A stretch of 64,000 bases of DNA from Rhodothermus marinus DSM 4252. GTDB lineage: Bacteria; Bacteroidota; Rhodothermia; Rhodothermales; Rhodothermaceae. Below are positions 46,540 to 51,373 of this stretch, piece after piece. Position 1 is the stretch's first letter; every line of letters begins with the position of its first letter. The position numbers and the translations under genes were made by a program. Below the pieces are notes generated by a model. It was not told the DNA's origin. It did not search any database and was given only the letters and a program-made list of their open reading frames with translations. The DNA lies in the NCBI RefSeq assembly GCF_000024845.1, contig NC_013501.1:1654874-1718873 (forward strand), written 5' to 3'.

Positions 46540-46734
46540 CGTTCTGAAGGTTGCTGGTGAGCAGATTTCCGGGCTATCGAAAGCGCCCGCGCTTATACGC
46601 GCAAGGCAAAGACAAGTCACTCAAAACCATTTGCGCCAGAAGTACTGCATTCTGAGCGCCAAATGTTCTACACATTTACTCAAAAATTTCCGAGAAAGAA
46701 AAGAGATTATCTCTCATAAAAAAATTTTTTAACA

Positions 46735-49700
46735 ATGTATTTCAAACTATGCTATTGCTTACTTGTTGTTATTTTTCTTTTCGCGAGTCTGACGCCGGCA
46801 GCCGAAGCTCAAATCTTTTCAACCACGACCGGTGGTAGCTGGACCGATCCGAATACGTGGATAGGCGGCATCGTACCCAGCGTAAACGATAGTGTCGTGG
46901 TACGGGGTCCTGTAGTTCTAAACAATAATGTCCAGGTTCGCGGCCTCACCGTAGCCGACACGCTTCGCATCGGCAGCTACACGCTCACCGTCGACCACCT
47001 CCTGGTCGACGGCGCCCTCCTGCCCCTGACCGGCTCCTACCCCATCGCCCAGGTCCGCACCTCCCTGACCAACAACGGCGCCATCCAACTCTACCGACTC
47101 GCCTTCCTCGACAACGCCACCTACCGCCAGGCCCCCCAGGCGCAGCTCTCCATCAACATCTTCCACCTCGGATCATCCGGCAGCAGCACCAACGGCGCCA
47201 ACCTCACCCTCCAGATCGACTCCCTCCTCAGCGGAACCATCGCAGATCTCCAACCCCAGAGCGGCACCCTCCACCTCACGCCAGGTGCCCGACTCATCCT
47301 CCGCAACAACTCCAGACTCCGCGGACCCGGAACCCTCCGGTGCCCCGACAACGCCTCCTGCCGCATCGAAGGTCAAACACAACTCTACGGCCTCACACTC
47401 AACGGAAATTTCCGCCTCCACGACAACCACCAGCTCCTCGCCACAACCAACGTCAACGGCACGCTCACCATCGCCGACACGCTTCGCATCGGCAGCTACA
47501 CGCTCACCGTCGACCACCTCCTGGTCGACGGCGCCCTCCTGCCCCTGACCGGCTCCTACCCCATCGCCCAGGTCCGCACCTCCCTGACCAACAACGGCGC
47601 CATCCAACTCTACCGACTCGCCTTCCTCGACAACGCCACCTACCGCCAGGCCCCCCAGGCGCAGCTCTCCATCAACATCTTCCACCTCGGATCATCCGGC
47701 AGCAGCACCAACGGCGCCAACCTCACCCTCCAGATCGACTCCCTCCTCAGCGGAACCATCGCAGATCTCCAACCCCAGAGCGGCACCCTCCACCTCACGC
47801 CAGGTGCCCGACTCATCCTCCGCAACAACTCCAGACTCCGCGGACCCGGAACCCTCCGGTGCCCCGACAACGCCTCCTGCCGCATCGAAGGTCAAACACA
47901 ACTCTACGGCCTCACACTCAACGGAAATTTCCGCCTCCACGACAACCACCAGCTCCTCGCCACAACCAACGTCAACGGCACGCTCACCATCGCCGACACG
48001 CTTCGCATCGGCAGCTACACGCTCACCGTCGACCACCTCTTGGTCAACGGCGCCCTCCTGCCCCTGACCGGCTCCTACCCCATCGCCCAGGTCCGCACCT
48101 CCCTGACCAACAACGGCGCCATCCAACTCTACCGGCTCCTTCTGATCGGCACGCGCCCTCGCAGGATCTGGGCGAAAGGATCGATTCAAGGGGATATTCG
48201 TATCGACGGTCAGTTTTCACTTATGGATCGCAGCTATCTGCCTTATTTCACTATTTCCTCAAACGGCCTGCTTATTGTTGCCGATACTCTGGAGATCGGC
48301 GATGGTCCTTTCAATGGAACAGAGCGGTTGATCGTTACCGGCGTGCTTCTGGCACGACGTTCTGTAGCGATTTCCGACTTTGCATTACCCAGCCTGTCGA
48401 TCCAGGGCCTCAGCGCGCCAGACACCACCGACACACTCCTCATAGCCTACCATGGGCTGAGCGCTCCCCTTTCGTTTGCCAATGCCGCGTTGGTCTACTG
48501 GCAGTTTCAAACCGACGCCACAACTGTGTCCAAACGCACAATACCCGACACCACAGGTCCTCAAGCTGCCACCCTCACCTTTTCCTATCAGGATCGGCAA
48601 ATTGCACAGATGTCGGAAGATTCGCTTCAGGTATTTTATTCGTCCGATGATTCTACCTGGCAACCTTTCGAAGGAGAAGTAAACAGGAATACCTCTCAGA
48701 ATACGATTACACTACAGAATGCTTTACTCCATGGCTTTTATACGCTTGCTCCACCAAGTGCAGCGCCTGTAGGGGCTACCCCTATCATTTATGTTGATCT
48801 GCTCGGCCGTCGCACCTTGCGAATTGGTGCTCCTAATCGATATACGCTTTTTTATGCAAACCTGGGGCGAACTTCCAGTGGGCCTATTTTTTTGGAAATG
48901 CAATATGATACACTGGCAATGCGGTTAGAATATGTAGAGATTATAAACGAAGCAAACGATAATGTTGAACACTTGCCTCCTGATAGTGTATTAATTACCA
49001 CCGGCCAGGTTGTACTATTAGGGCGTCCTCTTGAACCTGGAGAAACTGCGTCGTTTGACCTTGTCTTCACGGGGCTTCCAGGAGCCCTCCCTAAACGTTC
49101 TGCGGAAATACTGATTTTACCAGCACTGGCCGCTTTTGCTCTGCCTGTCCTCAAATGGGCACTGGTTGGAATTGTTACAGGATTTGTCAAAGACTTACTT
49201 GACCAGTATCTCTGTGTAGAAATGTGGAAACCAGTTTCTTCAGATGCCAATGTTCAGAAAGAGCTCAGTCAAGCTGCCTGGAGAGCTTTGAAAAAAACAG
49301 GCTCCGAGTGGGTCTCCAGTCCCCAGAAACCTGCCAAAGCGCTTCAGGACAAATTCGAGGAAGAAGTTAAAGATAAAGTAAAAGAGGGCATCTTGCCGGC
49401 CTGGGTTCTGGATGCCATTAAGGGACCTATAAAAATAGGAGAACTGATGTATGATGCCCTGAATTGCTTGCTGAAAGGAGCAGAAACATACCTGAACGCC
49501 TCAGCTTCTACCCGAAGCTTTACTTTGCAGCCGGTACGCTCGTGGGATCCCAATGAAAAAACAGGACCTACCGGGGTAGGCGGGGGCCAATTTCTAACCG
49601 ATGTTGGTCGGCTACACTATACCATCTTCTTTGAAAACAAAGCGGAAGCCACTGCTCCGGCTTACCGCATTGAGATCATCGACACGCTTGATGGGCGGCT

Positions 49701-50547
49701 CGATCCTTCCACCGTCCGTTTTGAACGAGCCAGTCATGAAGGATGGAATTTTACTGTAACCGGTAACGTGTTACGCTGGGAAATTGAAGGTATTGAACTA
49801 CCCCCCAATGTGAATCCCCCCGAAGGCGAAGGATATGTCAGCTTCTCTATAGAACCCTTTGCCGGTCAGGTTATCGACGGTACCCGTATTGAAAATCGAG
49901 CGACCATTACTTTTGACCTGAATCCCCCCATTACTACCAATACCGTATATAACACATTCGACCTGGCTCCTCCTGTAATCACACTACTGCCACTGGCCGC
50001 CGAAACTGAAGAGGACTCCGTGGTTATTCGCTGGCAGGCACACGATAACGCTTCGGGCGTAGCTCGAATCAACGTGTTTCGCTCCGTTGATGGAGGACCA
50101 TTCGAACTGGTCGCCCCTGTTCCTGCTCAAACGGACTCCGTAGCGTTACCTGTAGAAGCAGGCCATACTTATCGTTTCTATGCAACTGCACAGGATTTTG
50201 TAGGGAATTCCACCTTACAGCGTTCCAACGAGGTTACTACTCATGTAATAGCCGTTGGCGTAAACGACAATGCTAACTTCCCTAATCAGTTTGCACTGGA
50301 CGCAGTATATCCCAATCCATTCCGAACCGGAGTGACCTTCCGAGTAGGTTTGCCCCAACGGGCACATGTACGACTTGTCGTTTACGATCTGCTGGGTAGA
50401 GAGGTCGCACGCGTTGTGGATCAGGAGCTTCCGGCCGGGTGGCATGAATTGAGATGGTCTGCCCCGCCAATCGCCAGCGGACTGTATCTGGTTCGCTTTG
50501 AAGCTGGGCAAACGCAACATATGCGAACATTCCTGCGATTGCGGTAA
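46735..50547 (+). CDS. Large surface protein with tandem repeats and T9SS sorting domain
   Basis: This 1270-residue protein starts with a signal peptide ending near AEAQ (residue 26) and a G8-like strand segment (GGSWTDPNTWIGGIVPSVNDSVVV). Residues 74-246 and 247-419 are identical repeats and 420-467 a partial third, rich in Leu/Asn/Thr and predicted to form a beta-helix. The middle has a helical stretch (about 790-910) and a conserved SWDPNEKTGP...FENKAEATAPAYRIEIIDTLD domain (about 938-1075). An Fn3-like domain (about 1090-1170) and a type A T9SS sorting domain at the end (YPNPFRTGVTFRVG, VVYDLLGREVA, GLYLVRFEAG) follow. The 3' half is clearly richer in A+T than the repeat block. Probably an adhesin or surface-layer-associated protein. 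Confidence 0.85.
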   Translation: MYFKLCYCLLVVIFLFASLTPAAEAQIFSTTTGGSWTDPNTWIGGIVPSVNDSVVVRGPVVLNNNVQVRGLTVADTLRIGSYTLTVDHLLVDGALLPLTGSYPIAQVRTSLTNNGAIQLYRLAFLDNATYRQAPQAQLSINIFHLGSSGSSTNGANLTLQIDSLLSGTIADLQPQSGTLHLTPGARLILRNNSRLRGPGTLRCPDNASCRIEGQTQLYGLTLNGNFRLHDNHQLLATTNVNGTLTIADTLRIGSYTLTVDHLLVDGALLPLTGSYPIAQVRTSLTNNGAIQLYRLAFLDNATYRQAPQAQLSINIFHLGSSGSSTNGANLTLQIDSLLSGTIADLQPQSGTLHLTPGARLILRNNSRLRGPGTLRCPDNASCRIEGQTQLYGLTLNGNFRLHDNHQLLATTNVNGTLTIADTLRIGSYTLTVDHLLVNGALLPLTGSYPIAQVRTSLTNNGAIQLYRLLLIGTRPRRIWAKGSIQGDIRIDGQFSLMDRSYLPYFTISSNGLLIVADTLEIGDGPFNGTERLIVTGVLLARRSVAISDFALPSLSIQGLSAPDTTDTLLIAYHGLSAPLSFANAALVYWQFQTDATTVSKRTIPDTTGPQAATLTFSYQDRQIAQMSEDSLQVFYSSDDSTWQPFEGEVNRNTSQNTITLQNALLHGFYTLAPPSAAPVGATPIIYVDLLGRRTLRIGAPNRYTLFYANLGRTSSGPIFLEMQYDTLAMRLEYVEIINEANDNVEHLPPDSVLITTGQVVLLGRPLEPGETASFDLVFTGLPGALPKRSAEILILPALAAFALPVLKWALVGIVTGFVKDLLDQYLCVEMWKPVSSDANVQKELSQAAWRALKKTGSEWVSSPQKPAKALQDKFEEEVKDKVKEGILPAWVLDAIKGPIKIGELMYDALNCLLKGAETYLNASASTRSFTLQPVRSWDPNEKTGPTGVGGGQFLTDVGRLHYTIFFENKAEATAPAYRIEIIDTLDGRLDPSTVRFERASHEGWNFTVTGNVLRWEIEGIELPPNVNPPEGEGYVSFSIEPFAGQVIDGTRIENRATITFDLNPPITTNTVYNTFDLAPPVITLLPLAAETEEDSVVIRWQAHDNASGVARINVFRSVDGGPFELVAPVPAQTDSVALPVEAGHTYRFYATAQDFVGNSTLQRSNEVTTHVIAVGVNDNANFPNQFALDAVYPNPFRTGVTFRVGLPQRAHVRLVVYDLLGREVARVVDQELPAGWHELRWSAPPIASGLYLVRFEAGQTQHMRTFLRLR
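46954..47472 (+). repeat. Tandem repeat copy 1 (519 bp, 173 codons)
   Basis: This is the first copy of a direct repeat inside the surface-protein gene. It begins at GCCGACACGCTTCGC and runs to just before the same sequence at 47473. By inspection it appears identical to copy 2 throughout its length at the nucleotide level. Confidence 0.93.
47473..47991 (+). repeat. Tandem repeat copy 2 (519 bp)
   Basis: The second copy has the same length and, by inspection, the same sequence as copy 1 (46954-47472). Silent positions are also shared, so the duplication is recent or kept uniform by recombination. Confidence 0.93.
47992..48134 (+). repeat. Partial tandem repeat copy 3 (143 bp)
   Basis: The start of a third unit is identical except for two changes (CTG to TTG, and GAC to AAC changing Asp to Asn). 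Similarity ends abruptly after CTCTACCG, where unrelated coding sequence (LLLIGTRPRRIWAKG) follows in frame. Confidence 0.88.
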
Positions 50548-50551
50548 GCAC

Positions 50552-51373
50552 TCAGGATTGCACCAGCGTAGTCACAGCCGGCCAGGCTACCAGCAGATCG
50601 AGCAGGGCGAGATGGCCGTCGGTGATGCCGTGGCGGGCGACGCCGAGCACCATGCCGACAAGCAGCACGCCGAGCAGGTCAACGGCGGCCTCCGGTCGTT
50701 TCAGATGTGCCATGAAAATCAGGCCGACGGCCAGCGCCCCGAGCAGCAGGCCCAGCGCCACGCGGCGCAGCGTGCCGTAAGACCAGCGCACGGCGGGCGT
50801 GCGCACTCCCGAAGCCAGATCGCCGACGCGATCCGGCCAGTCGGCCAGCAGCGGATTGGGCAGCAACCACAGCAGCCGATAGGCTGTCAGCAGCCACAGG
50901 TCGGCGCCGGGCGTTCGTCCAGCTTCCAGAACCGGTAGCAGCGTGGTGCCCAGACTCCAGGCGCCGGCGATCAACAGCGGCTTGAGCAAGCCCCACTGTT
51001 TCAATCGCACGCCCGGCAGCACGTAGAGCATCCCCACCAGTCCGAGTCCGGCCCCTGCTACCAGCGTGACCGGTCGCAGGTGCAGCGTGGCCCATCCGGC
51101 AAGTAGCGCTCCGAGTGCCAGCCCACCGCGTTGCAACGTCCGATGCGCACGCCACCAGGACACACGTCCCGGTCGATTCAGGTAGTCCTCCGGCCCGACC
51201 GCCAGCGAACGATCCAGCAGGTACACGATCCAGGCCCCTGATGCCTCCAGCACGACGAGTGGCTTCGAAAGGGAAAGCTGCAGCAGGGCGGCATTTCCCG
51301 CCAGCAGGGCAACGGCCAGCAGTGGAATGTGCAACCCGCTCCAGAACAGCCTGCGCCAGAAGGGAATCGGCAC
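50552..51373 (-). CDS. UbiA-like prenyltransferase-family membrane protein
   Basis: No ATG suits the start; the GTG at 51373 (read as Met-Pro-Ile-Pro-Phe-Trp) gives 273 residues, while the longer frame to 51583 is antisense leader. About eight membrane helices are predicted. DWPDRVGDLASGVRTPAVRW near residue 180 resembles the second Asp-rich UbiA motif (D-x3-D-x3-G-x2-T), and DRSLAVGPEDYLN near residue 50 may stand for the first, though it is degenerate. The family attaches prenyl chains to aromatic or other acceptors; here the acceptor is unknown and activity uncertain. It lies 43 bp downstream of the SDR gene on the same strand. Confidence 0.68.
   Translation of the reverse strand: MPIPFWRRLFWSGLHIPLLAVALLAGNAALLQLSLSKPLVVLEASGAWIVYLLDRSLAVGPEDYLNRPGRVSWWRAHRTLQRGGLALGALLAGWATLHLRPVTLVAGAGLGLVGMLYVLPGVRLKQWGLLKPLLIAGAWSLGTTLLPVLEAGRTPGADLWLLTAYRLLWLLPNPLLADWPDRVGDLASGVRTPAVRWSYGTLRRVALGLLLGALAVGLIFMAHLKRPEAAVDLLGVLLVGMVLGVARHGITDGHLALLDLLVAWPAVTTLVQS

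Follow-up and report, generated by a model that had tools for sequence, protein, structure and literature searches.

The Rhodothermus marinus DSM 4252 window (the whole stretch of DNA that was analysed, 64,000 nucleotides) carries an accessory gene for a predicted T9SS-exported surface protein, with a signal peptide, a beta-strand-rich N-terminal region, DUF7619 and a sorting domain, in which a 173-residue stalk unit appears to have been recently duplicated in the manner of periscope proteins, a reading that we hold with a probability of about 0.68. To first order this explanation is ordinary; what is unusual is how codon composition is tied to the repeats. The features, in window coordinates, are these:

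46608..50570, no strand: accessory segment; strain AA3-38 has 32 bp in its place, with flanks at 95.3% and 94.9%
46735..50547, plus strand: gene for a predicted T9SS-exported surface protein, 1270 codons; ORF whose start resembles a signal peptide by eye, with DUF7619 and a sorting domain
46855..47019, plus strand: weak G8-like beta-strand region, residues 41-95, extending into copy 1; Pfam G8 at 21.4 bits, under the cut-off of 22.9
46954..48134, plus strand: block of distinct composition; C 77% and G 10% at third positions, GC skew about −0.45
46954..47472, plus strand: repeat copy 1; 519 nt, 173 codons, 519/519 identical to copy 2
47473..47991, plus strand: repeat copy 2; 519 nt
47992..48134, plus strand: partial copy 3; 143 nt, 2 mismatches
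49546..49956, plus strand: DUF7619, residues 938-1074; Pfam PF24595 at 96.8 bits, cut-off 27
50305..50532, plus strand: T9SS type A C-terminal sorting domain, residues 1191-1266; TIGR04183 at 34.8 bits, cut-off 23

An earlier note on this DNA had placed the block at these coordinates and described its full copies as identical, silent sites included, and a base-by-base comparison of each position with the one 519 nt downstream agrees: bases match from 46954 to 47520, differ at 47521 and 47527 (partners 48040 and 48046), and match again to 47615. The two differences that it had seen in a third, partial copy are thus located. That copy repeats the first 143 nt of the unit and departs from copy 2 by a silent CTG to TTG change (Leu) at 48040 and by GAC to AAC (Asp to Asn) at 48046. 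The note's claim of perfect in-frame repeats of 173 codons likewise fits the open reading frame, which holds 2.28 copies of a unit whose two full translations are 100% identical. No other exact repeat of at least 30 nt occurs in the window, so chance is excluded; Tandem Repeats Finder missed it because the longest period of that program is 500. The DSM 4252 genome (3,386,737 bases in two contigs) holds no further copy of the unit as DNA beyond the three of the block, and no protein copy beyond the block up to an E value of 10. Among 99 genomes the unit occurred in one, DSM 4252 itself, and the 98 relatives have no homologue. Two ORFs on the opposite strand of the block (47173-47685 and 47692-48189) are probably a by-product of its C-ending codons.

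Could the recorded repeat number be an assembly error, either collapse or false duplication? At 1181 bp the block exceeds the usual Sanger read, so a miscount is conceivable, and such arrays do break assemblies: contigs end inside them in all five draft congeners, namely G001 (end of C2, start of C4), G003 (end of C14), G004 (end of C17, start of C5), G005 (end of C177) and G006 (end of C53), while the other two genomes, G000 and G002, are free of draft breaks and have whole arrays. Against this, the partial third copy has distinguishing bases, and extracts of the genome report describe DSM 4252 as finished from Sanger reads of 8-kb and fosmid libraries together with 454 reads, and with measures taken for repetitive regions (PMC3035238). 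We therefore consider an assembly error very unlikely. The caveat that short reads may have collapsed further copies accordingly falls away for DSM 4252 but holds for its congeners, and it carries a caution: draft genomes of Rhodothermus lose such genes at contig ends.

The assignment to a T9SS protein, also made in the earlier note, stands on the TIGR04183 match and on the presence in the genome of SprA, the T9SS component searched for (2630.7 bits, cut-off 200). A second sorting-domain profile, Pfam PF18962, scored 23.0 bits on the C terminus, under its cut-off of 27, and T9SS sorting-domain matches number 49 genome-wide. The N-terminal start resembles a signal peptide in translation, as judged by eye. 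No adhesive domain was among the profile matches of the protein, and a sequence search of the PDB gave no match below E 0.01. A single-sequence structure prediction was all-beta at very low confidence (pLDDT 39.8). Judging from its sequence, the unit may form a beta-helix-like stalk of several turns.

The gene is accessory, present in DSM 4252 and absent from AA3-38. Where DSM 4252 (replicons of 3,261,604 and 125,133 bases) has 3963 bp, AA3-38 (3,430,829 bases; PMC6952675) has 32 bp and lacks the whole gene, and the flanks align at 95.3% up to window position 46607 and at 94.9% from 50571. In G001, too, asnS adjoins the short-chain dehydrogenase gene with the repeat gene missing between them. 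Outside the block, the gene has a G+C content of 49–50%, vs 64–70% in three nearby host genes. The short C-terminal tail of the neighbouring UbiA-like gene (window 50552-50600) reads VAWPAVTTLVQS in DSM 4252 and VAWPFVTAWMLG in AA3-38, which puts the insertion boundary within the 3' end of that gene.

Periscope proteins carry long, highly identical tandem stalk repeats, as extracts on Sgo_0707, SasG, Rib and CdrA describe (PMC8201768, PMC9704523). The protein studied here resembles them as a predicted surface protein with units of more than 50 residues, more than 80% identity, near-identical DNA and in-frame length steps. It differs in having a T9SS sorting domain rather than a sortase anchor or autotransporter, in its mere 2.28 copies and an array known from one genome, in the jump of codon composition at the repeat edges, and in its host, a free-living thermophile. 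If the likeness holds, the stalk repeats would arise and stay identical through intragenic recombination. RecA-dependent unequal exchange or replication misalignment could add or remove whole 173-residue steps with the frame kept, each step changing the reach of the protein from the cell, and the 143-nt third copy may be what unequal recombination between direct repeats left behind as the far homology arm. In the open-licence literature on T9SS tandem repeats and on Rhodothermus we found no description of these arrays.

A second repeat gene of DSM 4252 lies at locus L171 (2664-11666, minus strand), where a 3001-codon frame with fn3 and VWD domains and 537-nt tandem units adjoins malQ and a response regulator gene (names by eye). 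It shares with the 519-nt array tandem units of about 180 residues and the same hyper-C composition at fourfold sites, and differs in that its unit matches the 519-nt unit neither as DNA nor as protein, in its VWD and fn3 domains, and in having its sorting domain in a separate frame. Over L171 2199-11666 (minus), one stop codon ends the 3001-codon frame, itself devoid of a sorting domain, and is followed by a 154-codon frame that has a signal-like start of its own and a T9SS sorting domain, a pairing seen also in G004 (L175) and G006 (L176). Among the five full 537-nt copies there are 30 variable sites, 21 of them informative; all four allele combinations occur at 54 of 210 site pairs, and copies 0 and 3, but not 1, 2 and 4, have a tract in common at unit positions 317-397. 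These mixed site combinations, most simply explained by exchange between the copies, show that this second array has recombined, and they count as indirect evidence that arrays of this kind do so. In part this bears out the suggestion of the earlier note that perfect in-frame repeats let repeat number change by recombination. The 519-nt array shows no trace of exchange because its full copies are identical.

Related arrays have units of 576 nt in AA3-38, 537 nt in G004, 546 nt in G003 and 579 nt in G001. An L171-type gene stands upstream of asnS in G004 (L049), and another G004 contig (L175) starts inside an array and runs through the array end, the 154-codon frame and the UbiA-like gene to the short-chain dehydrogenase gene; the two contigs probably join. 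The beginning of a related gene is found upstream of asnS in G003, G005 and G006, while the malQ site of AA3-38 holds a DUF7619/T9SS gene (L068) in place of the L171-type gene. At no fewer than two places in the chromosome, asnS and malQ, the resident repeat-bearing surface gene therefore differs from genome to genome.

The repeats are set apart by their codons. Fourfold sites of the 519-nt unit have C at 0.76 and G at 0.09. The rest of the gene has 0.29 and 0.20, and host ORFs (51022 fourfold sites, with ribosomal genes not singled out) have 0.38 and 0.39, which rules out host codon use as the cause. Fourfold C is similarly high in the arrays of L171 (0.75), AA3-38 (0.80), G004 (0.74) and G001 (0.67), and reaches 0.48 in the G003 array, whose repeats are about 77% identical. 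Other parts of the array genes have values of 0.19–0.38, with the exception of the L171 VWD region (0.54). In 359 kb of DSM 4252 (20 stretches plus the window, without the 519-nt repeat gene), not one of 4647 windows of a hundred codons had a C3 of at least 0.75. In a non-random survey of 150 ORFs, mostly from T9SS loci and the window, three reached that value, all of them with direct repeats, and 11 had a repeat over the set limit.

Change-point fits compare the edges of composition with those of the repeats. The C-rich interval spans codons 69-466 in this gene, vs repeats at 74-466, and codons 162-467 in the AA3-38 gene, vs repeats at 162-468; in L171 it starts at the array start and continues beyond the array end. 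The coincidence of compositional and repeat edges in two unrelated genes is new here, as are the C-rich fourfold sites of the block, the differing occupants of the two chromosomal sites and the exaggerated skew of local repeats described below. Just before the C-rich array, L171 codons 1640-1790 have fourfold G at 0.64 and C at 0.25, a sharp skew reversal within one gene. The RNA of the unit folds more weakly (−121.6) than recodings with host codons (−180.7 ± 8.9, n = 60) or with codons from elsewhere in the gene (−140.7 ± 9.2, n = 60). Runs of CCC in the block number 33, below the 64.8 ± 5.1 of mononucleotide shuffles. G-quadruplexes were considered and ruled out, since both strands of the block, of the 537-nt array and of the AA3-38 array lack a G3 motif.

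Such sharp edges could mean that the block is an imported cassette, which arrived with or before the duplication from a donor with strongly C-ending codons and replaced part of a native gene. Its departure from both gene and host at fourfold sites, the match of the C-rich interval to the repeats and the lack of a homologue in 98 relatives all point that way. However, the search for a foreign donor gave no match to the unit in the 98 relatives, genome_contigs, plasmids or phages, although the genome_contigs negatives are weak, since the 537-nt unit family had no match there either despite its presence in congeners. Moreover, three different units (519, 576 and 537 nt) in several genomes share the bias, in G001 part of the gene, homologous to the array of AA3-38, shows less bias, and the sign of the skew tracks the replication strand in all readable arrays, which import does not predict. 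Import is thus possible but unlikely, and we continue to favour recent duplication of a stalk unit within an accessory surface gene.

The sign of skew in DSM 4252 switches between a sample at 1.52 Mb and the window at 1.65–1.72 Mb. The C-rich arrays coded on the lagging strand, two in DSM 4252 and one each in AA3-38, G001 and G004, have fourfold skews of −0.78 (519-nt unit), −0.74 (L171), −0.72 (AA3-38), −0.81 (G001) and −0.62 (G004), set against −0.047 ± 0.114 in lagging-strand host ORFs (n = 86, minimum −0.32) and 0.045 ± 0.163 in leading-strand ones (n = 90). A G-rich repeat gene on the leading strand of G001, L125, has a skew of +0.84. This T9SS gene (284-2950) has a CBM_4_9-like match and a 1071-bp identical direct repeat at a spacing of 1110, with third positions that are G-rich and poor in C and A, opposite in skew to the window array. 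At L136 (6671-11523), two adjacent paralogues, which we take to be GH3 genes by eye, are 92.7% identical over 2323 bp; they are the two most G-biased leading-strand ORFs of the sample.

Across eight local repeats, mean signed skew was 0.288, vs 0.057 ± 0.022 for random stretches (0 of 5000 draws), and without the three repeats that gave rise to the idea it was 0.261, vs 0.056 ± 0.030 (again 0 of 5000), in a test that was post hoc, choice of places included, small and confined to one genus. The correct sign at all eight places is not rare (1271 of 5000 draws), so that only the magnitude is unusual. The L049 and L174 arrays, scored apart, gave 0.26 and 0.24. Outside the eight-place test, four other T9SS repeats of 68–86% identity (L103, L099, L081 and L084) deviate, with signed skews of 0.08, −0.03, −0.05 and −0.15, the last of them at the skew switch; L119, L121 and L172 were left unscored, their replichore not being determined. 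High-identity local repeats thus have an exaggerated skew with the sign of their replication strand, a post hoc observation with exceptions.

One could therefore suppose that a replication-linked process acting on repeats, whether mutation bias or selection for recombination-prone DNA, made the skew in place, and that identity and skew share a cause. The eight-repeat means, with or without the founders, and the opposite signs of the five lagging arrays and the one leading-strand gene speak for it. Set against them are the small, post hoc nature of the test, the commonness of eight correct signs, the deviation of the four older T9SS repeats and the exclusion of G-quadruplexes as a mechanism, and on balance we regard such a process as unlikely.

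Strong skew in recombining surface-protein DNA has a parallel in the vls cassettes of Lyme Borrelia, for which extracts of one study give a mean GC skew of 0.52 and discuss a G-quadruplex idea (PMC11499132). Both systems have a strand skew that is strong relative to the rest of the genome, but in the array described here (−0.45) the sign on the coding strand is opposite, there are no silent cassette copies elsewhere in the genome as DNA or protein, no G-quadruplex motif is present, and the copies stand in tandem within one gene.

Recent stalk duplication leaves room for a wider and distinctly speculative idea, to which we give little credence. In the tandem surface arrays of Rhodothermus, and perhaps in recent local duplications generally, exaggerated replication-strand GC skew might be part of the mechanism: G-rich leading-strand composition and a poorly folding coding-strand transcript would mark or promote oriented recombination, as Chi-like or RecA-loading DNA, by which arrays would arise, stay identical and change length, with whole genes exchanged between the two sites.

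Most descriptions of periscope-like length variation come from pathogens, and immune evasion is among the leading reasons given. Were a T9SS version to exist in a free-living thermophile, it would suggest different reasons, for example biofilm or contact with phage or particles. The coincidence of repeat and codon edges and the tie to the replication strand would, for their part, allow a test of whether composition drives amplification or follows it.
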